A model generated the notes under the pieces. The model searched no databases. It saw only the letters and a list, made by a program, of their open reading frames with translations, and had not been told where the DNA came from. DNA of 40,811 nucleotides from a virus, in the IMG/VR virus record IMGVR_UViG_3300027841_000030, positions 1 to 40,811 of that record, one strand, 5' to 3'. Positions 1 to 19,076 of the stretch are shown piece after piece (the first letter of the stretch is position 1; each line of letters begins with the position of its first letter). The position numbers and the translations under genes are program-made.

Positions 1-34
1 CAATCTTGCGTAGGTCTTGCTGTAACTTACTCAT
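1..34 (-). CDS. Start of a late tail gene, cut by the left edge
   Basis: An ATG at 34 opens a leftward frame that reads MSKLQQDLRKI before the window ends. It overlaps the stop of the upstream 667-residue tail gene in an ATGA, the coupling used throughout this operon, so the start is credible despite its shortness. It is probably the amino end of the protein whose remainder occupies 40014-40811 at the right edge, but the two pieces are out of phase by two bases if simply joined. Function unknown; tail-associated by position. Confidence 0.6.
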   Translation of the reverse strand, partial: MSKLQQDLRKI

Positions 35-2034: not shown

Positions 2035-2038
2035 TATT

Positions 2039-2284: not shown

Positions 2285-2288
2285 CGTA

Positions 2289-2948
2289 TTATGCCTTAAG
2301 TCCGTAGAGTGTAAATTTGCCTGTTGATATATTACCAGAGGACATTAAAAATCTTATTCCGTCTATGGCACTATTAGATTGGTAAAACCCTGACCCTCGG
2401 ATAAATGAGGCTGTAGTGCTTGACGCAACAAAATCCATCTCGAAAGCACATGTCTTTGGATTAACTGTAGCCGATGGATTCATTAACCAAAAACGCACCC
2501 CTGACTCTTGTCCGGCTGTATTACCCATAGAGCCAAATATACCAGAATCAATTATATTCCACTGTGTAGCTGACGTAACCCTTCCAGCAACTGTTGATGC
2601 CCCAGTACCTTGTTGTGATAAACTATACAAAGCACTAGAACTAAAGCTAGAGGCTATAGATATACGTGCCTGAAACATAACGGTGTTTGTAGCAGGTAGT
2701 AATCCACTAATAGAAACAAAATAAGCTGCGTATGTGCTAGATAATCCTGTAAAATCTATAGTGGCTGAGCTAGACGCGGTCTGTGATGATATCTTAACCC
2801 AGTCGCCCGCATTTGTACAGTTACTCAAATCACCAGATGATGGTGTACCGAGGGCAGGGGTTACTAATGTGGGGCTTGTACTGCCCACAAAAGACCCTGT
2901 GCCTGTTGACCCGCTAAGGCCAACGTTTAAACTATTATTAGTTGCCAT
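2289..2948 (-). CDS. Short tail fibre, receptor-binding protein paralogue
   Basis: A 219-residue Ser/Thr/Gly-rich protein. Residues about 17-46 carry the phage fibre motif SFVGSTSPTLVTPALGTP followed by SGDLSNCT. The remainder (from [18 protein letters not shown]) is a beta-rich domain that recurs in the neighbouring 604-residue protein ([17 protein letters not shown] there) and ends with the same (F/Y)-x-SGNI-x-SG pattern. The two genes therefore share a duplicated adhesin module. It probably forms a trimeric fibre or tip on the virion that contacts the host surface. Confidence 0.7.
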   Translation of the reverse strand: MATNNSLNVGLSGSTGTGSFVGSTSPTLVTPALGTPSSGDLSNCTNAGDWVKISSQTASSSATIDFTGLSSTYAAYFVSISGLLPATNTVMFQARISIASSFSSSALYSLSQQGTGASTVAGRVTSATQWNIIDSGIFGSMGNTAGQESGVRFWLMNPSATVNPKTCAFEMDFVASSTTASFIRGSGFYQSNSAIDGIRFLMSSGNISTGKFTLYGLKA

Positions 2949-2962
2949 TTATTGTTGCCCTA

Positions 2963-4777
2963 TTATGTAACTGTAAATCCAGATGTAACCGCATTCAGCA
3001 TTGACCATGTTGTATTAGCTGTAATACATACAACCTCTATCGTGTCATATCTATTAGCACTTGCAGCTGCTCCGGCTGATGTTGTAGCCGTAGAGCCTAT
3101 ATTAATAGTTTGCCCTGTGTTAGCCGTTAATTTCCATCCACCAGCACCTTTCCCAGTAACAAAAACTCTATCGCCTAATGCTGCTGTAGCAGGGAGTGTA
3201 ACGTTAACTTGTGATGCATTGTTAGCAATATAATTATAATTAACTGCTGCGGCTTTAGTGGTTGCTGTAACCTCTTCAAATGTAATAGAGCCTGCGGGAC
3301 CACCTAAGTTGGTTTTGCTACGTCCATATGCATATATTACACCAGAGGCAATATTACCAGAGGCGAAATAAAAGCGTACAGCGTCAACATCAGCTGCAGA
3401 CATACGCAGCCCTGATGATGTGGTGCGTACTAGTGCAGCTGTAGCATTCATATAAACTAAGTCACCAGATATGTATTTGTACAGAGCAGAACCTTGGTTA
3501 TAAAGCTTAATCTCTCCACAAAGCATCTCTCCGGTGTCACTACCAACACCACTAGTTAATTGTATTTCAGTGGCTGAGGATGACCCGTTATTACTTAATG
3601 ATGTTGTTGGAGCAACAGTACCAGTGAAGGCATATTGATAAGATGCTGCCGCTGAATCATAAGTTGATCCATTGTCTGTTGACGTACGCATATAAAGACG
3701 GACGTTATCCGTAGCTGGTTTTAAATCTGTTATCACAAATATAATATCTGCATAATCAGTGAGGCCAGTGAAATCTAATGTAGCAGAGGAACTAGCTGTC
3801 TGTGACGATATGAATGTAAGAGCACCTACAGATGACCCGCCACCGCCACTAGGCGTTGCCCAAGTGCCATCACCTCTCCAATATGTGGAGCTAGAAGCTG
3901 ACGTACCACTGTTTAAGTTAGCTACTGCTAGGTTACCAGTTACACCAGTTGATAGGGGCAATCCTGTACAATTGGTTAATGTACCTGATGCGGGTGTACC
4001 TAAAACAGGCGCCACTAGTGTTAAAGCTGTACCGTTAGTGGTTGCTCCTGTAATACCAGCAAAAGAACCAGCATTATTATATTGCACTTCTGTGTCTGAA
4101 CCACCCGGACTACCTGAACCACCACCACCGCCCGAGCTTGTGGCACTCCATGATGCAGCACTAGTACCTGACGCTAGTACACATGTAACTGTAACTTTTG
4201 TTAATGTAGTTAAGCTATGCACTAAGTTACCGCCGGAGCTATTGATAGTTACAGTGCCAGTGCTGTTATTAACTAAATCAAAACTATGCCCAGTTGTTAA
4301 TGTGCTTGCAACAGGAAGAACCACTGTTTGGGTGGTTGAGCCTGTAAAAAATTGTTGTCTTGCGCTAGCCACTGTTAATGTTGTAGTGCCTGCAGCTGTT
4401 GCTGTAGTGGCATATCCATTTAACATATTGTTAGCTGAGAGGTTTAAATTACCGTCCCAATGAGCAGAGCTATTCTCTGTAGGGGTTGTTATAATAGCAT
4501 GGCTTGCAGCTGTCACTCTAAGTTCTACAGGTGTACCACTCACCCACGCAGCGGCAGATGTTCCTTCTTGTGCTCTAACAACTGTTAGGCTTGTACCTGA
4601 CCGAGCCGTAACTTTAACAATCTCTGTTGTATATCCTGAGCCTAGAGTTAAATAATAATACTCACCAGCTGCTAATGTGGGCAGTCTTGTTGCACTATTA
4701 ACAACAATGGTTGTTGCTCCTATAGCAATATCACCATTTAGCGAGCTAGCATATTGATTGACATATATTCTACCCAT
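2963..4777 (-). CDS. Modular tail fibre protein
   Basis: A 604-residue low-complexity, Ala/Ser/Thr/Gly-rich protein. In order: an amino-terminal virion-attachment type region ([15 protein letters not shown], residues 1-90), beta-rich shaft segments, a [11 protein letters not shown] linker near residue 215, the fibre motif [12 protein letters not shown] with TLTNCTGLP (about 250-275), a second glycine linker, the adhesin module shared with the next gene (about 325-490), and a C-terminal domain with [17 protein letters not shown]. The arrangement is typical of siphovirus fibres with exchangeable modules. Host receptor unknown. Confidence 0.75.
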
Positions 4778-4779
4778 TA

Positions 4780-5400
4780 TTATGCTCTCGTCTCTTTGAT
4801 GTTATTAAAATACACGCCTATCTGGGGATAGCCTGTGACGTCACTTGCTGTAACAACAGTGTTTGTGATTTGCATCCAGAATGTAACTTGTCCGGCAACA
4901 CCGCTATATATTTCAGTTCCTAAATCAAGACTAGCTCCTGCTACGGCTGACGTAAGCCCGCCTTCTGTTAGTGCTAATTTAATCTCTGTTGTGGGGTGTT
5001 TCTTAGCCATACATGTAAAAACAACAGTTCCATTAGTAACTGTATTTCCTATTGTTGTAGGCCATGTTGGTTCAGATGCTCCACTAGTGCCTGCTGTAGT
5101 AACTTCATAATAATATGTATTAGGTGTTACAGGCTCAACTTGTTGTCCTAGTGTGTAAGCTGTAGATGCTGCCCACTCGGCAATAGTTGATGTCGGTGTT
5201 AGTGTTATTTGGTTAACCCCGGGATTATCTGCATTAACTAATACATTAGCATTAGCAGCTTCGTTGCTGCCTAGCCAGAATTGCACTTTATTTGGATTAT
5301 CACTTAAATCTGTTTTATGTGCTAATTGTGTTGTACCGCTGTATTGTGCTGTTTGGGCTGCGTCAGTCCAAAGCTTAAATGTTAACGTTGCTAATGACAT
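4780..5400 (-). CDS. Tail protein with a carbohydrate-binding-like insert
   Basis: A 206-residue protein. Residues about 74-130 read [12 protein letters not shown], then [14 protein letters not shown] and [12 protein letters not shown]. This matches the recurrent W-x-A-S-T-x-Y-x-L-G ... G-x-S-G-x-x-x-P-x-W-P fold element found in phage tail and chitinase-like carbohydrate-binding modules. The flanking segments are beta-rich. It sits between tape measure and fibres, so it could be a distal-tail or decoration protein that binds surface glycans. Recognition is by motif only. Confidence 0.6.
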
Positions 5401-5401
5401 G

Positions 5402-6625
5402 TTATGATCCCACCGCTGAGGCTTCTTTGCTTACGAGACCAGCAGAACCCTGCTGTATAGCTTTCGTAAACTCTGGGCTTCCTGCAATACTTAGCAAAAA
5501 ACCTTCTGTTGTTTTAACTGTAATGTCTAGTTTAGACTTCTCAGTACTTGCTTTATTTCCTGATGATATTTGATTCTTAATTGCACCTAGTCCACCAACT
5601 AATGATGTGGCTGGGTTTGATGTTGGCGCATTAATATCTCTTTTTAGTTTGGCTATTTCAGACAATCTGCTGAAATCAATATCTCCACCAGTTACGGCAA
5701 AGTTGAAATCATTGAACACTTGTCTTGTCTCGAGCAAAATTAGCTTAAGTCTCTCATATGCCTTTATTAATGAATTAACTCCATCAATAGCAGCCTCTAT
5801 ACCAGTTGCTACGCCTATAAGACCATCGACCATAAATACAGCTGTTGCTTTAGCAATATTACCAAGACCACCCCACTCAACTATTTGCTTAGTGATAAAT
5901 TCTGTAATTGATTGTAGTGCAGGGGCGACAGCAACGGTTAATTGCATTTTAAATATATCGAGCACAGCAGATAGTTTCTTCATGGCATCATCGTATGCAG
6001 ACACGCCAGCTGCACCTTCTTCACTGATAACGCCACCAAATGCCGCAAACTCTTCGCCAGCGGCTTTTATATCGCTGCGTACAAGATTTGATATATTTTG
6101 GAATCCTCGGCCAAATATAACAGTACCAACTTTAGCTTGATCTAATGCCGTTGGTAGTTTTGCTATTTCTGCTGATATTTTTGTAAATGCTTGATCTAAA
6201 GATAGGCCTTGTAAATCTTTTGCTGTAAGTCCTATAGCCTTAAAGGCCTCTATAGTTTTTTTATTACCAGACTCGAGATTATTAAGCGTACCAACTAGTC
6301 TTTTCATACTGGCATCTAGTGACCCAGTACTGACATCGGCTAAATTAGCAGCATATTGTAACTTTTGCACAGCAGCAACAGTTGTACCCAGCTTTTGTGA
6401 CGTATTGACAAGCTCATCAATTTGCTCTGTTGTTTGATTAACGACATGCAAAAGAGCGCCAAAGGCAGCTACTAGCGTAACACCTATAACACCAGCACCT
6501 ATAACCCCAGCTTTAGCAATCCTAGATCCAAAGTTATCTGCGTCATTAGATGCTTGGTTTATTTTTTTTCTAAAGTCACTAGTGTTTGCTGTAACGATTG
6601 TGGTTAGTTCGGAGACTAATGCCAT
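5402..6625 (-). CDS. Tail tape measure protein (short)
   Basis: A 407-residue protein with the amino-terminal pattern typical of tape measures (MALVSELTTIVTANTSDFRK, then ASNDADNFGSRIAK). This is followed by an Ala/Gly hydrophobic stretch at about 38-62 and long helical segments with LGTTVAAVQKLQYAA. It follows the tail chaperone pair, as in lambda-like tails, and its ATG shares one base with their stop (TAATG). At about 0.15 nm per residue it would specify a tail near 60 nm, shorter than most siphovirus tails; that length is an estimate. Confidence 0.85.
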   Translation of the reverse strand: MALVSELTTIVTANTSDFRKKINQASNDADNFGSRIAKAGVIGAGVIGVTLVAAFGALLHVVNQTTEQIDELVNTSQKLGTTVAAVQKLQYAANLADVSTGSLDASMKRLVGTLNNLESGNKKTIEAFKAIGLTAKDLQGLSLDQAFTKISAEIAKLPTALDQAKVGTVIFGRGFQNISNLVRSDIKAAGEEFAAFGGVISEEGAAGVSAYDDAMKKLSAVLDIFKMQLTVAVAPALQSITEFITKQIVEWGGLGNIAKATAVFMVDGLIGVATGIEAAIDGVNSLIKAYERLKLILLETRQVFNDFNFAVTGGDIDFSRLSEIAKLKRDINAPTSNPATSLVGGLGAIKNQISSGNKASTEKSKLDITVKTTEGFLLSIAGSPEFTKAIQQGSAGLVSKEASAVGS

Positions 6626-7202
6626 TATGTACCACCTACTAAAAAGCTATCTAATAATGATTTTAATGCTGATGTTTTTTCAGCGTCAGTTTTTACAGCC
6701 TGTTTTTCTAAAAATAATTGTTCTACTACCCTGTCTCTATATTCTTTGTTTTGTAACTGGTCAAAGGCAATCCAGTTATACAACTCGTCTGCATCCATAT
6801 TTTCCACTAGATAGTTTTGAAAAACACCTAAATCATTTGCTTTTTTGTATGTATATTCTAGCAGTGGATGCTCTATCAGTTTTTTGCTCGTTTATCCAGT
6901 TCGTGCTCGCCTATACCATTTAGTTCTAAGCAGTGCTTGAATAATTCTACAACACCATTGGATGGTAGGTTTTTTATATCGTCTTTGTTACCAAATAGAG
7001 GGTTACCGTCATCATCCATGCAGCAATACAATAGTGTTAAGTAGATTACCTCAGACCCATCTGCTTTTTCTTTGTTAGCTGCTTCAATGTCTAATTGTTG
7101 TTGTATTGACATTTGTTTGATATGTACTTCACAATCCCAATCTTCTACGCGCACATCTTTAGTTTTACGCAGCTTATTAAGCCTATCTCTATTTAAATAC
7201 AT
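6625..7202 (-). CDS. GT-like tail chaperone fusion made by -1 frameshift
   Basis: Slipping by -1 on AAAAAAC (6879-6885) continues the G-like frame into KKLIEHPLLEYTYKKANDLG and then VENMDADELYNWIAFDQ, ending at 6625 for a 192-residue product. The downstream part has no good start of its own: its first candidate codon is a GTG at 6807 without a ribosome-binding site, and the frame is open upstream all the way to the slip site. This is the lambda G/GT arrangement, in which the rarer fusion links the tape measure to the tail tube subunits. Confidence 0.75.
6876..7202 (-). CDS. Tail assembly chaperone, G-like
   Basis: A 108-residue protein between the major tail protein and the tape measure, the position of lambda gpG. 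It is mostly helical and charged and ends ELDKRAKN. The last sense codons (GCA AAA AAC) directly before the TGA stop form the slippery heptamer A AAA AAC, and a -1 slip there opens a further 85 codons. Like gpG it should coat the tape measure during tail assembly and be absent from the virion. Assignment rests on position plus the frameshift signature. Confidence 0.75.
   Translation of the reverse strand: MYLNRDRLNKLRKTKDVRVEDWDCEVHIKQMSIQQQLDIEAANKEKADGSEVIYLTLLYCCMDDDGNPLFGNKDDIKNLPSNGVVELFKHCLELNGIGEHELDKRAKN
6879..6885 (-). other. Programmed -1 frameshift slippery site A AAA AAC
   Basis: On the minus strand the bases read GC AAA AAA C TGA. The heptamer A-AAA-AAC fits the X-XXY-YYZ rule and lies immediately before the zero-frame TGA of the G-like gene. 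The -1 frame is open on both sides. AAAAAAC is one of the efficient bacterial slippery sequences. I did not find an obvious strong stimulatory hairpin just downstream. Confidence 0.7.
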
Positions 7203-7384
7203 TACTTATTATCCTCTGGATACCAAAAGCCCACGGGGCAAGATGCCTTTTTAAATTTTGTTTTTAATGCAATACAGCACTTACATTTAGAGCATACGCT
7301 CTTATTGTGTGTTGCATAAGGACAAGAGGTGCAAATCTGCCTCCTCTCATCCTGTATAGATTGCTCTACAAATGGTGTATACAT
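7202..7384 (-). CDS. Small cysteine-rich, probably zinc-binding protein
   Basis: A 60-residue protein with cysteines in the order CTSC ... CSKCKCC ... CPVGFW. This resembles a small zinc ribbon family seen among tail genes of some siphoviruses. Its start overlaps the stop of the major tail protein gene, and its end overlaps the start of the G-like chaperone gene. Being fixed between tail tube and chaperone genes suggests a tail-assembly role. No catalytic motif is visible. Confidence 0.6.
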   Translation of the reverse strand: MYTPFVEQSIQDERRQICTSCPYATHNKSVCSKCKCCIALKTKFKKASCPVGFWYPEDNK

Positions 7385-7797
7385 TAGGTGGCTGCAAACG
7401 CGCCAGATATAGCAAGCTCTGCTTTACCTTCAACAATGCCGTCAACACCTAAGTCAAACGACATTGATATAACGTAAGCTGTAGCTGTGTATATGTTAGC
7501 TGTAACTGACGGGCTAGTTGCTGGTAATGTAATAACTAATGATGCGCTGGCACCAGATGCTTTATAAGCTATCATCTCAGCTTGACCTAAGTCATCTTGG
7601 TTCCAGAAAAAATTCATAGATAATGTACCAAAATCTTGTAATCCCATACGTCTAGTCTTAGCGGAATCTGCTAGAGTGGTGGTGTCAATTATTGACGCTG
7701 TGCCATTGCCAACACCTGATATTGATTTAACACCGTTAACAGTAACGGCATTGAACGACACTGTTGTGCCTTGTGATAGGATAGCCGGAGCTGCCAT
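7384..7797 (-). CDS. Major tail (tube) protein
   Basis: A 137-residue beta-rich protein with SGVGNGTASIIDTTTLADSA near residue 27 and a C-terminal LGVDGIVEGKAELAISG. This is the usual shape of short siphovirus tail tube subunits. It lies between the tail terminator gene and the chaperones, the canonical place. It should stack as hexameric rings around the tape measure. Confident by context and overall pattern. Confidence 0.85.
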   Translation of the reverse strand: MAAPAILSQGTTVSFNAVTVNGVKSISGVGNGTASIIDTTTLADSAKTRRMGLQDFGTLSMNFFWNQDDLGQAEMIAYKASGASASLVITLPATSPSVTANIYTATAYVISMSFDLGVDGIVEGKAELAISGAFAAT

Positions 7798-7810
7798 TGG
7801 GTATTTCCTC

Positions 7811-8209
7811 TTAGTTTATACAAAAATAGTTAACAGTAACTGAGCAACTCCACCAGCTTTCAATTACGCGAGCTTGTGTTATGCTTACAGCACCTAAGTT
7901 TATAACATCTGTTCCAGATGTTAGTTTTGTTACAGTTTTAAATCCGTCTCTAACTGCATCCGCTAATAACAATAGCGGAGCTGTTCCTTTCTTTATTTGT
8001 GTAAATATGTCAATTTGATATATGCCTTGATGCATCTCTTTACCATCTAATTGATGTAATGCTGCATTGGCTGGTAATAGACTTACACGTATATAATTAG
8101 TACCTTGTACAGGTGTTTTTTCTGTGTTTGGGTAGTAGATTGTTGGTAGCGAGCCTATTGATGCTAGCTTAACGTTTAAAGCATTTTGTATGTTATTAAT
8201 TAAGCTCAT
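7811..8209 (-). CDS. Tail terminator protein (gpU-like)
   Basis: A 132-residue protein with the alternating pattern of tail terminators. It has an amino-terminal helix (MSLINNIQNALNVKLASIG), a strand pair around NYIRVSLLPANA, the phrase GIYQIDIFTQIKKGTAPLLL, and a closing strand SCSVTVNYFC. It sits directly before the major tail gene, as expected for the ring that caps the tail and joins it to the head. It overlaps its upstream neighbour by one base. Confidence 0.75.
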   Translation of the reverse strand: MSLINNIQNALNVKLASIGSLPTIYYPNTEKTPVQGTNYIRVSLLPANAALHQLDGKEMHQGIYQIDIFTQIKKGTAPLLLLADAVRDGFKTVTKLTSGTDVINLGAVSITQARVIESWWSCSVTVNYFCIN

Positions 8210-8589
8210 TATATCTTATACCTCTTAGCAACATCATTAATAATGTCGCTCCACTCTAAACAAGACAGGCGCATCATACCTTCTGGGGCTTGTGTACTAT
8301 AGCCAAATTCAACGCGTTCGGCATATGGTTGATCATTTGATATGTTAATATAAACATCTTTCCCTTTAACACCATAACTTAATGTCCATGATGCTCTAAG
8401 TGTTCCCGGAACGTAGCCTGCGTGAGCTGGCCAATTCCATAAAGAGGGGTCACCTATAGGCGTTCTATTTTCAATGCGATTTAACAGCTCTTTAGATGCT
8501 TCAACTTGTATTTTATTGTTTGCTTTAATCGTTGTTTCAATTTGCTTATCAAATACATTGTGCCAGCTTTTAGTGTCTGTCTTAATCAT
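8209..8589 (-). CDS. HK97 gp10-like neck or minor tail protein
   Basis: A 126-residue protein with an amino-terminal helix rich in Lys/Glu, the phrase RTPIGDPSLW, then VPGTLRASWTLS and YAERVEFG near residue 95. These are features of the HK97 gp10 family of head-tail joining proteins. It lies between the stopper and terminator genes. Its start overlaps the previous stop by four bases (ATGA). Confidence 0.7.
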   Translation of the reverse strand: MIKTDTKSWHNVFDKQIETTIKANNKIQVEASKELLNRIENRTPIGDPSLWNWPAHAGYVPGTLRASWTLSYGVKGKDVYINISNDQPYAERVEFGYSTQAPEGMMRLSCLEWSDIINDVAKRYKI

Positions 8590-8939
8590 TGTCTTAGTTG
8601 CACTATATACACAACATCGCTACCTTGTGCTGTAATGCGCTCAACATTTTGAGCTGTATATACAACACCACCAACTGTAAAAATATCGTTAACCACTGGC
8701 TGTGTAGTACAGCTGAAGGTAAGCTTAATATCTTGTTGTTTAATTAATGTACCATCTATTTGATAGCTGTTATATCCTTCAGGATACCCATAGCCACTAT
8801 AACTAGTGTCTGAGCTATCAGTAACTGTACCTGTAGCTGTATCATATGCCCCTATTACATCTCTAACAGCAGATATTGATTGTCCGTAATTGGTTAGTAG
8901 TCTAAGGGCTACCGCCTGCATATTGGTTGCAAAAGACAT
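8586..8939 (-). CDS. Head-tail connector, probable stopper
   Basis: A 117-residue mixed protein in the slot of head-closure (stopper) proteins, between the adaptor and gp10-like genes. The central part DIKLTFSCTTQPVVNDIFTV followed by VVYTAQNVERI is a beta-barrel style ending common in this group. Identification is mainly from gene order. Confidence 0.6.
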   Translation of the reverse strand: MSFATNMQAVALRLLTNYGQSISAVRDVIGAYDTATGTVTDSSDTSYSGYGYPEGYNSYQIDGTLIKQQDIKLTFSCTTQPVVNDIFTVGGVVYTAQNVERITAQGSDVVYIVQLRQ

Positions 8940-8940
8940 A

Positions 8941-9426
8941 CTATCCCTTATTAACTGGTAATATATTACTTCCTACACCGCCACCAACAATAAGCTTTGA
9001 TAGAGAGTTTCCTATCTTCTTATTCATGACAGCACTTACAGACCCATCCATGTAAGTGACTTCTACAGACCCAACTTTCTCGCTCTTTGTGGCTCTTACT
9101 AAATCCTCTAGGGGACCAGTACCAGCATCTACAGCTAGCGCAACCTCACACTGAGCATTAATTAATTGTTGTGGTATATCATCAGACGCAAAATAATAGC
9201 CATCAATATACACTTGGATGCGTGGCCATTGTAATGATTGGTCTTGTGTCTTCTTGACACCTTTATAATGCAACTGCTCTAGGTAATCCATAGCTTGTAT
9301 TAATAGTTGCTCAGCATCGCCAGTAACTGTAATACCCCTAGCTGCTGCATAGGCCGCAAAGTCTGTTGTAGATATATAGCTATTAGCATTGGTAACTATT
9401 GATCCTGTTTCTACTATCAGCGTCAT
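8941..9426 (-). CDS. Head-tail adaptor of the so-called DnaT-like family
   Basis: A 161-residue protein with the family pattern SYISTTDFAAYAAARG, then AEQLLIQAMDYLEQLHYKG, QSLQWPRIQVYIDG and IPQQLINAQCEVAL. Databases often name this group a putative DnaT-like ssDNA-binding protein, but its constant place after the major capsid gene shows it is a head-tail adaptor. The C-terminal part (KVGSVEVTYMDGS) is typical too. Confidence 0.8.
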   Translation of the reverse strand: MTLIVETGSIVTNANSYISTTDFAAYAAARGITVTGDAEQLLIQAMDYLEQLHYKGVKKTQDQSLQWPRIQVYIDGYYFASDDIPQQLINAQCEVALAVDAGTGPLEDLVRATKSEKVGSVEVTYMDGSVSAVMNKKIGNSLSKLIVGGGVGSNILPVNKG

Positions 9427-9467
9427 TGTGTTTAGCCTATTAAATATTGTATGTAAGCAATTCTATA

Positions 9468-9491
9468 ATAGCCCCTGTTACCAAGGGCTAT
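9468..9491 (-). promoter_or_regulatory. Hairpin between capsid and adaptor genes
   Basis: A 7-bp inverted repeat (ATAGCCC / GGGCTAT) with a ten-base loop in the 80-base gap after the major capsid stop. In the leftward RNA it is followed by TATAGAATT, too poor in U for a strong terminator. It may attenuate expression or protect the abundant capsid message. Confidence 0.45.
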
Positions 9492-9506
9492 GAAGACTAG
9501 CCTAAA

Positions 9507-10640
9507 TTAGCCCATGTGTATGCAAGCGAAGTCTGGTTTCCAAACTTTAACACCGTACAATGCGCCAATTTCAATCATTGCTTTTTGGAAGCCTTTGTAC
9601 ATAGCAAGTGTGAACACTAAGCCAGACCAAGGATCTTGTACGACCATACGGTCTACAGCAGCATCACCACCAAAAGGAATTGCGATTGGACGCATAGCAA
9701 TCTCAGCAGCAGCTTTGTGGAACACGATGTTACTTGTAGAAGATGCGTTAACAGATATTGCTAAGTTATCAGCAGCAGCTTCACGGATAGCAGAGTTAAT
9801 AGTAAAACTACCACCAGAAAGAGCAGTTGCAACAACATACTTGTAGTTACCAATAGTAACAACGTCACCAGCAAGAATAGTACCAGAACCAGTATCTACG
9901 GTTACAGTGGTTGCACCAACAGCTAAAGCACCATTAAGTAAGTAAGAAGCACCAGAACCGGCAGTTTTAGAAGCGATTTGGCCAGACTCTCTGATTTTCA
10001 TGCCATAAAGGTCTAATAAAACACCTTGACGTAATAGATCAGGAGAACCAGCTTCGTTAACTTTGTACAAGTTAGCTAAGTTGCGTAAGTTAACGCCAGC
10101 AGCAGTATTATATACAGCACTGATTTGACCATCATCAGGGCATCCGCGGTCTACTAATAGTCTACGAACGTTTGATAGGTCATTAAGGTTGGAAGCAAAA
10201 GGAGTGGTTCCAGCAGTACCGTAGCCCATACCAGCACCAACAGAAAGAGCAGCACCCAAATCAAGTTCCATTTTGTTAACAATTGCACGGAATGCTTGAA
10301 GGATTTGATCTCCGTAAACTGTTTGGAAGCCTGAACCATTGTCTAAATGCTTGATATCTTCACCAGTGTAAGGGATTTGGATAGAAGCATAAGTGTCAAG
10401 GGTCATTGTTTTGCTATCAACAGTTTGATCAGTACCTTCTGGTATGGTCATTGCTGGTGCATAAGTGGTGGATACAGTTTGTGCACGGGTTACGTGTGAC
10501 CTTAAGTAATCACCTTTAGCAGCGAATTGTGAACCGTTTGCGTTGATAGTTGCAGCTGGAATAAGTCCAACTAGTTCCCTGCCAACTCTGTCACGTGCTG
10601 CGTAAACATCAGGTGCCAGATATGTAAAAACGTTTGCCAT
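9507..10640 (-). CDS. Major capsid protein, P22 coat-like
   Basis: A 377-residue HK97-fold coat protein of the P22 gp5 type. It has an amino-terminal arm MANVFTYLAPDVYAARDRVG, the phrase DTYASIQIPYTGEDIKHLD, a conserved DRGCPDDGQISAVYN near 165, an inserted beta-domain around ALAVGATTVTVDTGSGT (about 235-290), and a C-terminal DRMVVQDPWSGLVFTLAMYK. Its codon use looks smoother than its neighbours, as expected for the most expressed gene. It is preceded by the scaffold gene and followed by connector genes. Confidence 0.9.
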   Translation of the reverse strand: MANVFTYLAPDVYAARDRVGRELVGLIPAATINANGSQFAAKGDYLRSHVTRAQTVSTTYAPAMTIPEGTDQTVDSKTMTLDTYASIQIPYTGEDIKHLDNGSGFQTVYGDQILQAFRAIVNKMELDLGAALSVGAGMGYGTAGTTPFASNLNDLSNVRRLLVDRGCPDDGQISAVYNTAAGVNLRNLANLYKVNEAGSPDLLRQGVLLDLYGMKIRESGQIASKTAGSGASYLLNGALAVGATTVTVDTGSGTILAGDVVTIGNYKYVVATALSGGSFTINSAIREAAADNLAISVNASSTSNIVFHKAAAEIAMRPIAIPFGGDAAVDRMVVQDPWSGLVFTLAMYKGFQKAMIEIGALYGVKVWKPDFACIHMG

Positions 10641-10662
10641 TTTATATTTTTCCTATTGGTTA

Positions 10663-11316
10663 TTAATCTACTAGTTTGCCGCCTTTGGCAAAAAATTGTC
10701 CTCGGTCATATTGACTTAGATTTTCAAAGTCTGATCGAGATATTGTTTTTGTTTCTGCTGGCGCACCGCGCGCATTTCCTGGAGCACTTCCACCACTGGC
10801 TTTAGATTGTTTCAACAGGCTTTGATATTTGTTATTAGTAGCAAATTGATTCTTAACATCTAGTATGACATCGTCACTCAATGACCCGTCATCCTCTGCT
10901 AATGCTTCTAATTTACGCATAACAAAATCACTTAACAGCTCTACATTAGCACCTTCAGCAAGTTCATTGCTTATTTTTAATGCAGAGATTTGTATTCTTT
11001 CTTTCTTATTATTATTTTTTAAATCTGCTATTTGTTTTGCTAGAGAGTCTTTTTCTTCTTTAGCTGTTTTCCATAGCTTTTCATACTCGCCATCTTTCAG
11101 GGCTTTTTCATCAGCTATTCTTTGAGCTTCAGCAGCTGCTTGCATTCGTTCGGCTTTAGCTTGCTTAGTCTCTGACAATAATTCTTGGTTCTTTTTTACA
11201 AGACCTGGGAGCTTTTCAATGCTCTCTTTGTTAGCCTCGTAAAACGCTTTATAATCTATTTCCGGTGTTTCTGACTGTTGTTCAACCACTGGTTGTTCAT
11301 TCATCACTTCTGACAT
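10663..11316 (-). CDS. Capsid scaffold protein
   Basis: A 217-residue, highly charged, mostly helical protein lying directly before the capsid gene. A long coiled coil (about residues 40-125, with AAAEAQRIADEKALKDGEYE) follows an acidic amino end. The tail is Gly/Ala/Pro-rich (GGSAPGNARGAPAE) and then basic. This is the normal make-up of scaffold proteins that guide procapsid assembly. The frame extends two codons further (to 11322), but the second methionine has the better spacing. Confidence 0.75.
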   Translation of the reverse strand: MSEVMNEQPVVEQQSETPEIDYKAFYEANKESIEKLPGLVKKNQELLSETKQAKAERMQAAAEAQRIADEKALKDGEYEKLWKTAKEEKDSLAKQIADLKNNNKKERIQISALKISNELAEGANVELLSDFVMRKLEALAEDDGSLSDDVILDVKNQFATNNKYQSLLKQSKASGGSAPGNARGAPAETKTISRSDFENLSQYDRGQFFAKGGKLVD

Positions 11317-11464
11317 TATCATTACCCTCTGGGTTATATTTAAGATCTAACGCTATTAGATCCTCTATGCTATAGGCTCCGTTTCCTAGCCTATCATTAT
11401 TGACATACTCGTCAATAAATTCTTTTGGTTGCTGTCTAAGCCAATCGACTAATTTCTTTTTCAT
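11297..11464 (-). CDS. Small hypothetical protein in the head operon
   Basis: A 55-residue protein starting MKKKLVDWLRQQPKEFIDEY. The ATG at 11464 overlaps the stop of the Mu F-like gene in an ATGA, which decides this start over an upstream methionine. Its end overlaps the scaffold gene start by about 20 bases. No family recognised; helical and acidic. Confidence 0.6.
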   Translation of the reverse strand: MKKKLVDWLRQQPKEFIDEYVNNDRLGNGAYSIEDLIALDLKYNPEGNDNVRSDE

Positions 11465-12180
11465 TCTACAATTATCCAAGTGCATCGGCAGTTTGCATGA
11501 GCTGGTATTTCATCAGTTATATCATTTTCATCAAATACCTGGCCATCCATCTCGTCACAGAACGGGCATGTAGCCTCGTCCAGTATTGCACTCCATTCAA
11601 CATGTCTATTGTTCTTTGACGCCACTCTTTGTCTAGCTAAGTTAGCACCTGCTATAATAGCAACGCCAGCTAAAGCAAGATTTTGCACTGTAAAAAGTCC
11701 ATTAACTGTATCACTAACTTTCTTTTGTGCTACATCGGCATCGGTGCCTTCCACTTCCACATCTTTAGCAATCTGTACTAGCTGCTTAACCTTTGCATCA
11801 ACAAACAATTGATATGTGTCTAATATTGTTGCAGGCTTTCTATTCAAACTAACACTAACCGGTGTCACAGTTATAAGCTCTACTATTTCTTTATTAGTAG
11901 GCTTCTTTATCTTAACGCCTTTACTATATTGTTGTAACTTTTTAGTGCTATACCCTGCTTCGTATAGAGCTAATTCTTCAATAAGCTTTAATGCTTCTAC
12001 AGGTATGCCACCCATAACCATTGTTAGCTTGTTTCTAAGACCTCTATAATCACCGCTATCTATAGCTTGTTTTGTTATTCTTTCTGCTTCTTTCAGACCG
12101 TGACGTGTTTTATTTGCCTGGGTTTTAATCAGCCGCATCAATAGGATTTGGTGTCGTAGCAACTCGTTGCGCAGTGACAT
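11461..12180 (-). CDS. Mu F-like minor head protein
   Basis: A 239-residue protein. The C-terminal region has the signature of the Mu F/SPP1 gp7 head morphogenesis domain: EWSAILDEATCPFCDEMDG followed by PAHANCRCTWI, with the Cys-x-x-Cys and Cys-x-Cys pairs. The amino half is helical. It overlaps the end of the portal gene by 56 bases in another frame. A later methionine at 12138 would shorten the overlap. These proteins are carried in a few copies per procapsid and bind the portal. Confidence 0.8.
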   Translation of the reverse strand: MSLRNELLRHQILLMRLIKTQANKTRHGLKEAERITKQAIDSGDYRGLRNKLTMVMGGIPVEALKLIEELALYEAGYSTKKLQQYSKGVKIKKPTNKEIVELITVTPVSVSLNRKPATILDTYQLFVDAKVKQLVQIAKDVEVEGTDADVAQKKVSDTVNGLFTVQNLALAGVAIIAGANLARQRVASKNNRHVEWSAILDEATCPFCDEMDGQVFDENDITDEIPAHANCRCTWIIVE

Positions 12181-13531
12181 TCTCGGCCCCCATTAATGGA
12201 TCGTTTTGTTCAACTTCTGCATCAATCATATCATCGGTTTTCATCGGGTCAATCCACCCTGTACGTCTACCGTAGTCTCTAATATCTTCTTTACCGATAA
12301 CGCCTCTATCTAACAGCATTATTTGTTGAATAATTAGATTTGGATCTGCTGTTGGTTCAAAAAATTCTTCGTTAAGCTCGTATTCTACAAGCTCAGGATC
12401 TGCATCCATAAAAGCACATTGTATTTTAAGGCAAGCTTCAATAGCCCACTGCACGTTCTTTGATAGTACATATAACGCACTATTTTGTGACCCGTAACGT
12501 ATTCTAGCACCCTCTGCTGTCTCTCTAGTGCCTTGAGCACCTTCGATGAGCTTAGCCCCAATAGCAGCTGCTTGTTCGATTAAGTCTTTCATGATTTGTG
12601 ATACTAATTGGTTAGGAGATGCTTGTATAATATCAAGCCTACCACCTTTGGTAATCACCATCTTTCTAGAGCCTACAACCATTGATTGGTTGTTTGCTTT
12701 AAATTCTTCTTCTGTAGTTTCGCCCACATCCAAGTGATATGTAGGTTGTCCGCAAATCCAAGAGCTTTCAATTAAGTCAGCGCTGCATCTATAATGTCCT
12801 AAATTGACGATGGATATATCATACAAAGGTTGAGCATCAACTATTGGATCGTTATTACTAGAGCCGATAAAAACAAAAGGTATGTAATTTAATGGCCTGC
12901 CTTGTGCATCAACTACAGGTATTACATCAACTAAATCTTCGTCTTCATTATATATTTCTTGATAATAAACATCATTATTGTCTAGACGTAATACACGATA
13001 TTGCTTTTTAACATCTTGGTTAAATGGGTTTTCTGGGTCTTCGTTAACGATGGATTCTGCTAATACAATTAGCCATGGCATAACAACACCGCCCACCATT
13101 CTAGTTTTCCAGTTGATTATAGCTTCAGGAGCGTAAGGCTTAATAAAGCCTTTTTTAGCTTCGTTATTATAATCGTTTAATAAGCCATATCTACCTAAAC
13201 TAATAGTTTCACTTATTGTATGCTGGCTAAACTGATAGAGATTAATTCCTGACCCTGTAGCATCGTCTAATAGATATTGTAGCTCTGGTGGTAGATCAAC
13301 TTCAGGAGGTTTTCTAAAAACAAGCCCTGTTAATCCATCTCTAGTAAGCTTCGTAAAATTAGTCAATATAGCATCTGACCGATATTGCTTACTTCTTTCC
13401 AAATCGTTTACATCTGGGTTTCGTATCATTGACTGAGCATTATTATTAATAATAGCTCTAATCAATTCCCAGCGTTTTACGCTCTCGCTGTATTCAGGAT
13501 GTAGTGTACTAACACTAGGCTTTTTAGACAT
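12125..13531 (-). CDS. Portal protein, DUF4055 type
   Basis: A 468-residue protein directly after the large terminase. Hallmarks of the DUF4055 portal group are visible: LHPEYSESVKRWELIRAII near the start, TRDGLTGLVFRKPPE at 63-77, the phrase IPFVFIGSSNNDP, LGHYRCSADLIESSWICGQP near 255, and RETAEGARIRYGSQNSAL near 345. It forms the dodecameric DNA gate at one capsid vertex. Confidence 0.85.
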   Translation of the reverse strand: MSKKPSVSTLHPEYSESVKRWELIRAIINNNAQSMIRNPDVNDLERSKQYRSDAILTNFTKLTRDGLTGLVFRKPPEVDLPPELQYLLDDATGSGINLYQFSQHTISETISLGRYGLLNDYNNEAKKGFIKPYAPEAIINWKTRMVGGVVMPWLIVLAESIVNEDPENPFNQDVKKQYRVLRLDNNDVYYQEIYNEDEDLVDVIPVVDAQGRPLNYIPFVFIGSSNNDPIVDAQPLYDISIVNLGHYRCSADLIESSWICGQPTYHLDVGETTEEEFKANNQSMVVGSRKMVITKGGRLDIIQASPNQLVSQIMKDLIEQAAAIGAKLIEGAQGTRETAEGARIRYGSQNSALYVLSKNVQWAIEACLKIQCAFMDADPELVEYELNEEFFEPTADPNLIIQQIMLLDRGVIGKEDIRDYGRRTGWIDPMKTDDMIDAEVEQNDPLMGAENVTAQRVATTPNPIDAAD

Positions 13532-13533
13532 TT

Positions 13534-14874
13534 TTATTCAATTCTCTTTTGCGCAAAGGAGTAATCAACTTTGAATAGCCTCGGGCGTATTCCCATCTCA
13601 TAAACTATTGGGTATGTGGTAGCGTCATTGCTATGGTCATAGCCACTTTTTTTATCTGGTTTACCGTCTTTATTAAATGCTTGGTTAATTAAGCATCTGC
13701 TAACTGTAGGACATTTACGTTGATTTATAAACAGCTTGCCTTGCATAAAAGCGTTATTTGTGGCAGCTATTCTATCCTCAACTGGGGCATTCTTATTCTT
13801 ACTAAATGCTCTTATTGTATATCCTTTAGCTTCAAGCTCTGCTATAGCTGACTTAGATGCGCTATTAGCATTATTCCTATTGCCTCCGGTGGAGTCAGGA
13901 TACATCGTTACGTGATGTCCTTTTGAGGCATATCTATCATATATAAGACAAGCAAGTGTATGAGAGTCTCTCACACCAACCATTTCATCCACCGCATGCC
14001 ACTCTTTCCCACCGTTACGTCTAACGTATATAGTGGCAGCAGTGTTTTCTACGTTAAAGTCACAGCCTATATATAAGTTTTCTCCAGGCCTAACTTCTTC
14101 AATACTGTCGTGCAGCTTAACATCGTAGTTATAATATACTGCTAAGCTTTGCATATTTACAAACTCACCGTTTAAATAAGCATCAGCAATATGTGCTGGA
14201 TAACGGTCTCTAATACTCTGTAAATACTTTTTAGTCACTGTAGGATTATCTGCTGTCCTACCTCTAACTAATCTATAATCTGTATTAGGAGCAAGCTCCC
14301 AATTCTTATAGCAAAAATTATAGCCTTCAGGTGTCGTAAAGGATATTGTCTTATTCATACAAACTAATTTACCGGTTTCTTCCTCTATAACCCTGTAATC
14401 TTCTGGTACATCTTCAGGCTGTTGCCTATTACGCATTACAATACCACGATACACTTCATCAGCCTTAGCTTCTGGGAGCGTATCAAGCTCATCTATAAGA
14501 GCCGCGTAGCTTTGGTATCCAACAAAACTTGATGGATTATCCATAGGCTTAAAAAATATATCGCCACAATTAGGTGTTTCTATTTTTATCACGTTTTCGT
14601 GGTTATTAAATCCTTTATGCTTAATTTTAAATCTATCAAGCCATAGCAGGATGTTTGGTACTTCAATTGTTCTAATATGATGATGCTCAGGAGCATATAC
14701 ATATATGTTAGCGTCTTTGCTGTGTTGCACAAGCATTGTAGCAACAAGTCCTAACAAATAACTCTTACCGCAACCGGGACCACCTACAAACAGAGGATTG
14801 TCACAATCCTTAGCCATAACTAAGTCAATAAAATCTGCTTGGCTTTTGGTCAAGCTTATTTTTAATTCTGACAT
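13534..14874 (-). CDS. terL: Terminase large subunit
   Basis: A 446-residue packaging motor. The ATPase half has Walker A GGPGCGKS at residue 31, Walker B ALIDELDT near 125 and a coupling TTPEG near 180. The nuclease half has GCDFNVENTAATIY (first catalytic Asp), YPDSTGGNRN (second) and DHSNDATTY (last). Its length is normal for the Terminase_6 group. It overlaps the small subunit stop by one base. Confidence 0.92.
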   Translation of the reverse strand: MSELKISLTKSQADFIDLVMAKDCDNPLFVGGPGCGKSYLLGLVATMLVQHSKDANIYVYAPEHHHIRTIEVPNILLWLDRFKIKHKGFNNHENVIKIETPNCGDIFFKPMDNPSSFVGYQSYAALIDELDTLPEAKADEVYRGIVMRNRQQPEDVPEDYRVIEEETGKLVCMNKTISFTTPEGYNFCYKNWELAPNTDYRLVRGRTADNPTVTKKYLQSIRDRYPAHIADAYLNGEFVNMQSLAVYYNYDVKLHDSIEEVRPGENLYIGCDFNVENTAATIYVRRNGGKEWHAVDEMVGVRDSHTLACLIYDRYASKGHHVTMYPDSTGGNRNNANSASKSAIAELEAKGYTIRAFSKNKNAPVEDRIAATNNAFMQGKLFINQRKCPTVSRCLINQAFNKDGKPDKKSGYDHSNDATTYPIVYEMGIRPRLFKVDYSFAQKRIE

Positions 14875-15266
14875 CAGTCTTCCTGTTCGATTACGATGCC
14901 CTCACTAATCATTAATTTAGGCGACTCAATACGTTCAATGCGTATTGTTGTAATTTGTTCGTTGTGTGTGTGCTCGTGTTCCACTTTATCAACATATCCG
15001 GCTTCATTCTTAAGAGCTAGGTTGATGCAGGCTGCGTTTCCTGCTGACACACCAGATGCTACATCTCTTTGTAGCTTACGCCACCACGCCGTCTTATCTT
15101 GTTCACCAATTTCATGTGCGTGTGCAAATGCTGGGATGGTTTTAACCCAATTGTAATATGTGGTGCGAGTAATGTTCCATAGCGTACACACTTCTTCAAC
15201 ACTACTGCCATCTTTACGCAGTCCTTTAAGGAGCTGCTTTGCAAATCTAGGTCTGTATTTAGACAT
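14874..15266 (-). CDS. terS: Terminase small subunit
   Basis: A 130-residue protein with an amino-terminal helix-turn-helix (VEEVCTLWNITRTTYYNWVK) and a central helical oligomerisation region ending LALKNEAGYVDKVEHEHTHN. This pattern is common to small terminases that start with a resolvase-like HTH. It lies directly before the large subunit. It should recognise the packaging start on phage DNA. Confidence 0.85.
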   Translation of the reverse strand: MSKYRPRFAKQLLKGLRKDGSSVEEVCTLWNITRTTYYNWVKTIPAFAHAHEIGEQDKTAWWRKLQRDVASGVSAGNAACINLALKNEAGYVDKVEHEHTHNEQITTIRIERIESPKLMISEGIVIEQED

Positions 15267-15493
15267 TATTTATCTGCTAATTTATGCAACATGTCTTTGA
15301 TGTCACGTATGTCTATAGAGACATATTTAAAATCTGTTTTAATTTCAATAATTATTTTTTGCATCTCATTACTCTCTTCTTCTAGGCGTTCGATGCGCTG
15401 TTCGTGTTTTTTATACATATGCCAAGCCATTGTACAAATAACTGTCAATAATGGCAATATGCCATATTTGATAAAATCGCCTAGTAAGTCCAC
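15266..15493 (-). CDS. Small membrane protein with coiled coil, possible lysis accessory
   Basis: A 75-residue protein if begun at the GTG at 15493, which lies four bases after the holin stop and about nine bases from a GGAAG. An upstream ATG at 15538 would overlap the holin gene more. One membrane segment (FIKYGILPLLTVICTMAWHM) is followed by a charged coiled coil (RIERLEEESNEM ... IRDIKDMLHKL). The shape fits XhlA-like or spanin-like accessory proteins. Next to the holin-like gene a lysis role is reasonable but unproven. Confidence 0.5.
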   Translation of the reverse strand: MDLLGDFIKYGILPLLTVICTMAWHMYKKHEQRIERLEEESNEMQKIIIEIKTDFKYVSIDIRDIKDMLHKLADK

Positions 15494-15497
15494 AGGA

Positions 15498-16124
15498 TTA
15501 TTCTTCCATTGATGATTTTGCCGCTGCAAGTATCGCATCCCACTGTTCCTGAGTCATACCCTGCTTAAACAATGTTTTTCTTAAATTATCGGCTAAAGCC
15601 TTCTCGTTTATAGCTGCTTTAACAGCTAATTTCTGTAGCTTATATGGGCGTTTATCCTTGAAGAATTCTGTTAGATTGCTAAATATATTAGCAACAACAG
15701 GAGCACCCACTTGTATACCCCAAACAGTGAACATAATGGTTACAATGCTGGAAACATACCACTCAGGCATTGAGCCTAAGTTTTCAAACAATATTTTAGC
15801 GTAGCTTGGAGCTACAACACCTAAAGCAAAAGGACAAAACCAAACGCAGAAAGTGAAATATTTAAAATAACTTCCGGTGCTTTCAACAATAGTTTTATTT
15901 AATTCAAATTGAGCTTTAGCTGCCTCAGATGCATATTGCATTTGCTTATTCTGAACTTCGAGTTGGTAGTCAAGTTTCTTAACTTCCATCTCTTGTTTTT
16001 TCTTGTAGTAGTCGCCAATAAGTCCGGGCAAATTTCCTAACAAGCCAAATAACAAAGTCCAAGGCACAATATTTCCCACAAAGAGAAGGCACTTAAAAAC
16101 AACAAGGAGGGGATATTCTAACAC
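15498..16124 (-). CDS. Holin-like membrane protein (three membrane segments)
   Basis: A 208-residue protein with a hydrophobic amino segment (residues 4-34), a charged helix (YYKKKQEMEVKKLDYQLEVQ), then two further membrane segments at about 87-110 and 124-145. The end is amphipathic (MTQEQWDAILAAAKSSMEE). This matches the 3-TM holin group (GTA holin type). It is the first gene of the late operon. No ATG is available: the frame begins at a GTG at 16124 without a clear ribosome-binding site, so the exact start is uncertain. Confidence 0.65.
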   Translation of the reverse strand: MLEYPLLVVFKCLLFVGNIVPWTLLFGLLGNLPGLIGDYYKKKQEMEVKKLDYQLEVQNKQMQYASEAAKAQFELNKTIVESTGSYFKYFTFCVWFCPFALGVVAPSYAKILFENLGSMPEWYVSSIVTIMFTVWGIQVGAPVVANIFSNLTEFFKDKRPYKLQKLAVKAAINEKALADNLRKTLFKQGMTQEQWDAILAAAKSSMEE

Positions 16125-16168
16125 AAGCGGTTGAGTAATATCTGTTGCTAAGTGCCTATTAATTCAAC

Positions 16169-16186
16169 GGGCAATATTTCTTGCCC
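16169..16186 (-). promoter_or_regulatory. 5' leader hairpin of the late transcript
   Basis: A perfect 6-bp inverted repeat GGGCAA / TTGCCC with a six-base loop. It lies within a few bases of the predicted start of the leftward transcript, so it would cap the late mRNA and could protect its 5' end. Confidence 0.5.
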
Positions 16187-16195
16187 TATATATTA

Positions 16196-16224
16196 ATTAT
16201 ATCATCATACAACATGTATGTCAA
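16196..16224 (-). promoter_or_regulatory. Late-operon sigma-70 promoter, perfect consensus
   Basis: Read leftward, TTGACA (16224-16219) and TATAAT (16201-16196) are separated by exactly 17 bases. Both hexamers are perfect. Transcription should begin near 16189 and run into the holin, terminase and structural genes. No UP element or operator palindrome overlaps it directly, but ACAAT/ATTGT palindromes lie just upstream. Confidence 0.85.
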
Positions 16225-16264
16225 TAGCTAAAAGCTAATTAAATCACAATATGTATTAATATTT

Positions 16265-16285
16265 ACAATATTGTTACAATTGTAA
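16265..16285. promoter_or_regulatory. Paired ACAAT/ATTGT palindromes, candidate operators
   Basis: ACAATATTGT (16265-16274) abuts the 12-bp perfect palindrome TTACAATTGTAA (16274-16285). They lie between the leftward late promoter and the rightward promoter at 16357. The core ACAATTGT recurs twice around the promoter at 19313-19341. This suggests a shared DNA-binding regulator, which I could not identify in the window. Confidence 0.45.
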
Positions 16286-16356
16286 TTTAATATAATACTA
16301 ACAATAATTTACATAGTGTTTCAATGCAACAGAAGCCCCGAAAGCGTATGTTGCTA

Positions 16357-16385
16357 TTGACAACACGTTTTTATTATGCTATTTT
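16357..16385 (+). promoter_or_regulatory. Rightward sigma-70 promoter with extended -10
   Basis: TTGACA (16357-16362), a 17-base spacer, then TATTTT (16380-16385) preceded by TG at -15/-14 (TGC-TATTTT). The transcript would start near 16392, at the edge of the A+T tract, and read through the paired hairpins at 16595-16669. Confidence 0.65.
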
Positions 16386-16594
16386 AGTAATACTAGTACT
16401 AGTACTATAGTACTAAGTACTAAGTAATAATATATATATTATTAAATATATATATATTATTACGTATATAATATATAATATATTATTATAAATATATTAT
16501 ATATTAGTACTAAGTATTAGTAATATTATATTTATTAATAATATAATATTACGTATACAATATATTTTTATTTAAGTAAAAATATATTAATATT
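16386..16594. other. A+T tract with palindromes, candidate replication origin
   Basis: About 209 bases with almost no G or C apart from short AGTACT-type steps. It contains tandem TAGTACTA units (16386-16425), a perfect 11-bp inverted repeat (16521-16531 / 16541-16551), and the direct repeat ATTACGTATA at 16459-16468 and 16548-16557. It sits between divergent transcription units, as expected for an easily melted origin. No gene is visible from 16225 to 17180. Origin function is inference. Confidence 0.45.
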
Positions 16595-16632
16595 ATGTGT
16601 AATACACAAATAAGCTACAGTGTATTACACAT
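16595..16632. repeat. 13-bp inverted repeat with AAATAAGCT loop (hairpin 1)
   Basis: Perfect arms ATGTGTAATACAC and GTGTATTACACAT flank a 12-base loop beginning AAATAAGCT. Each arm is itself nearly palindromic (GTGTAATACAC, GTGTATTACAC) with centres 23 bases apart, so it could also be a pair of operator sites. The loop sequence is repeated in the next hairpin. Confidence 0.6.
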
Positions 16633-16637
16633 GTACA

Positions 16638-16669
16638 ATGCTTCCGGCAAATAAGCTTCCCGGAAGCAT
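16638..16669. repeat. 10-bp inverted repeat with the same loop (hairpin 2)
   Basis: Perfect arms ATGCTTCCGG and CCGGAAGCAT around a 12-base loop CAAATAAGCTTC. The arms are unrelated to hairpin 1, yet CAAATAAGCT is identical in both (16607-16616 and 16648-16657). There is no T-run after it, so it is not a simple terminator. Confidence 0.6.
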
Positions 16670-16765
16670 ATATTACGCCATTTATTATTATTTAATAAAT
16701 GTTGTCCTAGAAATGCTATTATAAATCTTGTTAAAGGCACTAAATTTGCTCTCTACGAGGTTTTT

Positions 16766-16819
16766 ACCCTCTTGCCTATGCAAGGGTAGCTTAAAAGTAT
16801 TTGCGTGTCTTGTACACGC
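16766..16819. repeat. Two small hairpins upstream of the early promoter
   Basis: The first has the stem CTTGC-CTAT-GCAAG (16771-16784), extended by ACC/GGT. The second, at 16803-16819, has the perfect arms GCGTGT and ACACGC around CTTGT. A small palindrome CTTAAATTAAG follows. None is followed by a T-run. The role is unknown: they could be processing or terminator-like elements of transcripts arriving from the left. Confidence 0.4.
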
Positions 16820-16863
16820 CTTAAATTAAGCCTAAATATTTTTAATTTATTTTCATTATTTCC

Positions 16864-16891
16864 TTGCTTTTTTCTGCACATGTGTTATACT
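16864..16891 (+). promoter_or_regulatory. Early promoter for the structured RNA and small genes
   Basis: TTGCTT (16864-16869), a 16-base spacer and TATACT (16886-16891) preceded by TG at the extended -10 position (TGT-TATACT). The predicted start is near 16898, immediately before the first helix of the structured region at 16901. It probably drives the RNA and the genes from 17181 onward. Confidence 0.7.
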
Positions 16892-16900
16892 TGAAAGTAA

Positions 16901-17160
16901 GAGGCTAGGAATAGACCCTCCAGTCTGATAACTAGCCGGATGTGCCATGGCAGATGGCCGAAAATCTGCAAGACAAAGTATTTTCATGAACTCAGTGGTG
17001 GCGCTGAGGTCGAAAGAGCCACAACACACATATTCATCTAGGTTGAAATGCCTAGAAAGACACCAGCCAGGCCTAGACGTCTTTAACAAGACGTGAGCAT
17101 CTAATATGGGCTGGACGGCAAGCCATGAGTCGTTAATGACGGGCTGATCACCCGAATGGC
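16901..17160 (+). ncRNA. Candidate structured RNA of about 260 nt
   Basis: This stretch is visibly richer in G+C than its A+T flanks, begins right after a promoter, and has no credible reading frame. Possible helices, all seen directly: GGCUAG 16903-16908 with 16932-16937, enclosing AGAC/GUCU; GCAGAU 16950 with AUCUGC 16964; CUCAG 16991 with CUGAG 17004; a GAAA-capped stem at 17008-17020; UCUAGG 17037 with CCUAGA 17051; CCAGCC 17063 with GGCUGG 17109, enclosing the 7-bp ACGUCUU/AAGACGU stem at 17077; and a three-way junction closed by GCCAU 17122 / AUGGC 17156. I do not recognise a known riboswitch, ribozyme or tRNA. It ends just before the ribosome-binding site of the next gene, so it could be a leader or a free RNA. 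Confidence 0.6.
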
Positions 17161-17180
17161 ACTTACTAAAGGAGAACAAA

Positions 17181-17536: not shown

Positions 17537-17803
17537 ATGGCTAGAATGATGTTTGACGAGAGAGAAAAATATACAGAACATTGGGAAATAGCTATAAATA
17601 ATTCAAATAACACATTTACAATAACACATAATAAAGCCCCTCACATAGATGGATATGACAGAATTCAGATTTTATCCTTAGAGAATAAAATAAATATTAT
17701 TGTACATACACTAAAAAGACTTGACAGCATATTTACACAAGCAGAACAGCTTATTTGCCCTATTATGAGGGGAAAAATAGCCTTAGAATTAGGGAATATT
17801 TAA
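17537..17803 (+). CDS. Early hypothetical protein
   Basis: An 88-residue protein with AAAGGAG at good distance from the ATG. A mixed amino half (EHWEIAINNSNNTFTITHN) looks beta-rich and the second half (IVHTLKRLDSIFTQAEQLI) helical. It lies 11 bases after the previous gene in the same unit. No family recognised. Confidence 0.65.
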   Translation: MARMMFDEREKYTEHWEIAINNSNNTFTITHNKAPHIDGYDRIQILSLENKINIIVHTLKRLDSIFTQAEQLICPIMRGKIALELGNI

Positions 17804-18996: not shown

Positions 18997-19076
18997 ATTG
19001 GCACATTATATGCATTAGCATAATGTATGCCAATGTGTGTTGGCACGTGTCTTGCATTAGCAAGCTCTATGCCAAC
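18997..19076. repeat. Tandem pair of matched 38-nt hairpins
   Basis: Unit 1 (18997-19034) and unit 2 (19039-19076) have the same plan: a 7-bp outer stem (ATTGGCA/TGCCAAT and GTTGGCA/TGCCAAC), an internal loop, a 5-bp inner stem (TATGC/GCATA and CTTGC/GCAAG) and the same ATTA loop. Both are 38 bases and the period is 42. The outer first pair changes A-T to G-C, and the inner stems change on both sides, keeping the pairing. The fold seems conserved rather than the letters. A GGGGG/CCCCC hairpin lies just upstream (18974-18988). Confidence 0.65.

Follow-up and report, generated by a model that had tools for sequence, protein, structure and literature searches.

Why would a phage carry the same loop sequence on two neighbouring hairpins whose stems are unrelated? 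The question is raised by two inverted repeats in a 40,811-base record of an uncultured virus (IMG/VR IMGVR_UViG_3300027841_000030), which was analyzed over its entire length and is referred to as the window. The first-pass annotation had described the pair alone, and the row of eight hairpins around it had been overlooked.

Gene setting of the locus

The record is that of a tailed phage. According to the list of open reading frames and the PHROG labels, structural and packaging genes run leftward at 31–16124, and small genes run rightward starting at 17181. The hairpins lie in the divergent intergenic region at 16125–17180, between the leftward lysis/packaging operon and these rightward small genes. 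Replication genes, encoding a PolA-type polymerase, a DnaB-like helicase, and a primase, run leftward at approximately 20–39 kb. The terminase shares approximately 40% identity with its counterparts in Escherichia and Raoultella phages of 42–45 kb and 75% with those in a few IMG/VR contigs. With TerL as query, no relative was found in bacterial genomes, and with the DNA polymerase as query, none was found in IMG/VR. No long open frame crosses the hairpin row, and none of the genes adjacent to it was identified as encoding an initiator or DNA-binding protein. The phage also encodes an endonuclease VII-like protein (PF02945, Endonuclease_7 domain; 27222–27668, minus strand), possibly a nuclease for cruciforms or branches.

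Twin hairpins within a row of eight

In the inverted-repeat scan, hairpin f (the earlier hairpin 1, 16595–16632) has 13-bp arms (16595–16607/16620–16632) with 100% complementarity and the 12-nt loop AAATAAGCTACA, while hairpin g (the earlier hairpin 2, 16638–16669) has perfect 10-bp arms (16638–16647/16660–16669) and the 12-nt loop CAAATAAGCTTC. Both inverted repeats are thus as they had been described. Their stems are indeed unrelated, as had been claimed, with identical bases at 2 of 13 positions to the left and 5 of 13 to the right of the common 10-mer CAAATAAGCT. This 10-mer was located on the plus strand at 16607–16616 and again, 41 bp away, at 16648–16657. Its first base, C16607, lies within the stem of hairpin f, where it pairs with G16620 as the last stem base. 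Because of this paired C, the unpaired sequence common to both loops is the 9-nt AAATAAGCT instead of 10 nt, and its register is shifted by one. The annotated ten-base identity at the same place in both loops therefore stands as far as the presence of CAAATAAGCT in both hairpins is concerned; the common unpaired length and the position had to be corrected.

At least two hairpins of at least 9 bp were reached in 0 of 300 dinucleotide shuffles of 16590–16705, and a 10-mer common to any loop pair of the row is expected approximately 0.01 times by chance. A chance origin of the pair is excluded. A third copy of CAAATAAGCT at 17748–17757 (minus strand) lies inside a gene, has no hairpin, and is probably due to chance.

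Hairpins f and g are members six and seven of eight back-to-back inverted repeats at 16394–16701. The inverted-repeat scan returned the other six as hairpin a (16394–16415, 8-bp arms TAGTACTA), hairpin b (16424–16463, 16-bp arms, loop TATTAAAT), hairpin c (16469–16506, 16-bp arms, loop ATTATA), hairpin d (16520–16552, 13-bp arms, loop TATTAAT), hairpin e (16559–16588, 12-bp arms, loop TTTAAG), and hairpin h (16679–16701, 9-bp arms, loop TTATT). The centres of the last seven are spaced 36–49 nt apart. Neither the number of hairpins nor the total arm length of the row was reached in any of 300 shuffles, and the single-stranded DNA fold of the row has a z-score of −12.85. The arms of 9–16 bp contain no interior mismatch and no G-U pair, a perfection which is partly a product of the arm definition itself.

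Hairpins b and d, taken with their 3′ flanks, match at 79% over 43 nt, and the row also contains 17-bp direct repeats at a distance of 90 nt; a unit of two hairpins was therefore probably duplicated in tandem to give part of the row. Such partial duplication is what would be expected if the row were a mutational by-product with little or no function, in which a two-hairpin unit was tandemly duplicated in A+T-rich DNA and template switching subsequently perfected the arms and copied the loop. Template switching reportedly generates perfect hairpins and keeps them so, and the loop can be retained in this process (PMC8794818). The lack of the row in the relatives examined points in the same direction. 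However, the arms of hairpin g are 60% G+C and have no stem sequence in common with hairpin f, so the f/g pair itself did not come from a simple duplication. In addition, eight palindromes between two operons would need to be tolerated. We consider the by-product explanation less likely than action at the DNA level, but one to be taken seriously. A repetitive hairpin-forming (selfish) element was also considered and rejected, given that there is one cluster only and that the stems of f and g differ.

A melting region between diverging operons

As the annotation had stated, the twin hairpins lie beside an A+T tract (16425–16594), which ends directly before hairpin f. By composition and stacking energy, this tract is the weakest duplex of the whole window, with 5.9% G+C over 170 bp, far below every other stretch. 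Its stacking energy of −0.87, compared to a window mean of −1.27 (sd 0.06), makes it the least stable by a wide margin. An exceptionally weak duplex, as an origin would have, is therefore present; beyond this melting region, no clear hallmark of an origin was found. No DnaA boxes occur near the row (the nearest one, with one mismatch, is at 14986), no lasting GC-skew switch occurs at the row (the skew tracks the gene strand), and no initiator gene was detected. Possible iterons are limited to two direct repeats of 10 bp, two of 17 bp, and A+T-rich repeats. The earlier proposal of a replication or transcription switch is thus well suited to the divergent control region and the extreme melting stretch, but receives no support from DnaA boxes or skew near the row.

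Our preferred reading, held tentatively and with a little less than even confidence, is that the row is a cis-acting DNA element, i.e., a control region for strand opening and protein binding at the DNA level that acts as a replication start, a transcription switch, or both. Located over the most easily melted stretch between diverging operons, the row would open the strands. The dyads would serve as double-stranded binding sites or, alternatively, be extruded as cruciforms or single-strand hairpins once the A+T tract opens, and the two CAAATAAGCT cores, 41 bp or approximately four helical turns apart, could offer paired contacts for one protein. Action at the DNA level is favored because the arms hold Watson-Crick pairs only, the 13-mers of hairpin f are near-palindromic, the cores are approximately four turns apart, and a melting region adjoins them between the operons. 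The repeats, their origin other than by chance, the extreme A+T content, and the divergent position are established; the action at the DNA level, a bound protein, and the role as origin or switch are inferred. Counted against this reading are the replication genes at 20–39 kb, away from the row, and the missing conservation in three relatives (L002, L004, and L006).

The annotation had further read the retained loop on different stems as a sign that the loop itself is recognized. The loop is indeed kept while the stems differ; however, each arm of hairpin f is the near-palindrome TGTGTAATACACA, which suits a plain double-stranded operator dyad equally well. That a phage protein or RNA recognizes the AAATAAGCT loop on interchangeable stems, making the row a structural switch (as single-strand or cruciform DNA or as leader RNA) unlike described phage origins and operators, appears improbable to us.

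Promoters, terminators, and the possibility of an RNA element

Two sigma-70-like promoters were matched to the consensus. The leftward one, TTGACA-17-TATAAT (12/12), lies at 16196–16224 on the minus strand, and the rightward one, TTGACA-17-TATTTT (10/12), at 16357–16385 on the plus strand, facing into the row. Since promoter-like matches across the region are no more numerous than in shuffles, both are leads only. If active, the rightward promoter would place the whole row in RNA too, which also counts against action at the DNA level.

If a rightward transcript starts from the promoter at 16357–16385, the row could accordingly form its 5′ leader, with hairpins that stabilize the message, allow antitermination, or make the AAAUAAGCU loops available to an RNA-binding protein or a complementary RNA. 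Besides the 10/12 promoter facing into the row, the RNA fold of 16392–16900 (z-score of −11.5) is in agreement with this. Moreover, 12 nt of hairpin g (GGCAAATAAGCT) recur at 17748–17759 on the minus strand, inside a downstream rightward gene, and would be complementary to the rightward row transcript. This antisense match, however, was noticed post hoc and lies in coding sequence, and the 10-mer itself has a chance expectation of 0.39 copies per window. The arms are without G-U pairs inside, and the covariance models of Rfam 15 gave no match with E ≤ 1 at 16–17.2 kb. Furthermore, a nearer promoter-like sequence, noticed on visual inspection near 16866–16894, could drive the same genes with no need for the row. 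Overall, an RNA element appears less likely than action at the DNA level and about as likely as the by-product explanation, and is likewise to be taken seriously. Computation does not separate the DNA-level, RNA, and by-product readings at this locus.

Hairpins f and g were also considered as intrinsic terminators and rejected because no T-tract follows the full hairpins; the terminator scan reported only a nested 5-bp stem inside hairpin g on the minus strand. Two further RNA candidates lie close by. Ahead of the gene at 17181, approximately 300 nt of noncoding, G+C-richer sequence (16880–17180, plus strand) folds as RNA into many stems (z-score of −2.8) behind a promoter-like TTGCTT-TATACT spotted by eye and is possibly a structured leader RNA, with no Rfam match in this interval. 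The second, a stem-loop that includes CCCTCC (16087–16157, minus strand), lies in the leader of the holin-like gene; it also occurs in L002 (approximately 3253–3330) and L004 (approximately 700–780) with changed stem sequence and, judged by this recurrence, may be a conserved RNA element.

Occurrence in other viral DNA

The comparison set comprised 1.43 Mb of viral DNA, including the 80 best TerL relatives from IMG/VR. Here, the next longest row consisted of five hairpins, and a common 8-mer loop on different stems was not found in any other two strong hairpins lying near each other. That nothing comparable exists in these 1.43 Mb is in favor of the DNA-level control region. Copies of the 10-mer in the other loci compared were never within such a hairpin. 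Searching IMG/VR for the exact patterns of hairpins f and g gave no match, and a BLAST comparison of the pair with 50,697 phage records yielded partial, insignificant matches only. Nothing on point was found in the literature on hairpin arrays in phage control regions.

The same loop was not found in hairpins of related phages, where the annotation had proposed to look for it. The nearest relatives examined (TerL 75%) cannot test the loop, as the whole row is absent there. In L002, L004, and L006, whose gene order around terS and the holin-like gene is related, the A+T-rich region is shorter and contains no such row.

These relatives also bear on a role in packaging or recombination. Located approximately 1.1 kb upstream of terS, the row could be a pac-like site, or its extruded cruciforms could be cut by the endonuclease VII-like protein of the phage. 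However, the relatives examined keep their terminase genes without the row, and no site-specific recombinase was found among the scanned proteins, a subset of the proteins of this phage. We regard this role as very improbable. A tyrosine-recombinase (loxP-like) site was rejected on the unrelated arms of f and g and the same scan.

A second twin dyad

The window holds another twin dyad on the plus strand at 18998–19033 and 19040–19075, each copy being 36 bp long with the pattern TTGGCA-N8-GCATTAGC-N8-TGCCAA. In a loose form, the pattern matches 58 stretches of IMG/VR, nearly all of exactly 36 bp, and several of them carry the palindrome in tandem at 54-bp spacing. Pattern search located it at 313–456 of L049 and in L087, L037, L082, and others. 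Where the flanks could be called, it lies mostly between diverging genes, and it is often located upstream of terminase genes. In L049, L087, and L037, the terminase operon adjoins it, with two kinds of large terminase among these contigs. Across 84,980 species genomes of bacteria and archaea, a somewhat stricter pattern matched once, within what appears to be a gene, and blastn of one typical member against cultured phage records gave no full-length match, in a search that is weak for short diverged sites. The palindrome is apparently undescribed and virus-specific. Both halves resemble sigma-54 promoters (TGGCAC-N5-TTGC) placed face to face. Since its inner positions are mostly unpaired, the sequence is more indicative of a dyad bound by protein than of a hairpin. 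A TTGGCA-type palindrome is also found among several strong-hairpin clusters (five in 215 bp) at 5873–10062 of L039, a 223-kb viral contig.

Significance and comparison with known systems

If the row is functional, it would allow a compact, natural test of whether the structure of DNA or RNA hairpins, and not their sequence, is what phages read in control regions, with the loop pair on swapped stems as a built-in experiment. If it is not, it would clearly illustrate how duplication and template switching build up palindromes in a virus.

A+T-rich strand-opening regions occur in phage and plasmid replication origins, which resemble the row in their extreme A+T content, their repeats and inverted repeats, and their position in an intergenic control region. 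In the row, by contrast, neither DnaA boxes nor an initiator gene nor a skew switch was found, and no iteron family is clearly evident. RNA leaders with tandem hairpins include the put sites of HK022, and CsrB-type RNAs carry repeated loop motifs. Alike are the consecutive hairpins with a repeated loop behind a promoter, whereas the row has no sequence match to them, its transcript is only putative, and the motif occurs in two of its eight loops. The hairpin promoters of phage N4, with short stems and 3-base loops, are used by a virion RNA polymerase. As in the reading proposed here for the row, a protein recognizes hairpins that are extruded in the control region of a phage; in contrast, f and g have 12-nt loops on 13- and 10-bp stems, and no virion RNA polymerase was identified in the record.

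In mitochondrial repetitive and double hairpin-forming elements, the stems are conserved, the loops vary, and the copies are dispersed (PMC2800124). These elements resemble the row in their tandem intergenic hairpins and in complementary differences between related units, whereas the phage row is found at one place and keeps the loop while the stems differ. As the f/g pattern is the reverse of this stem-conserved, loop-variable arrangement, a constraint on the loop sequence, acting as DNA or RNA, is possible.
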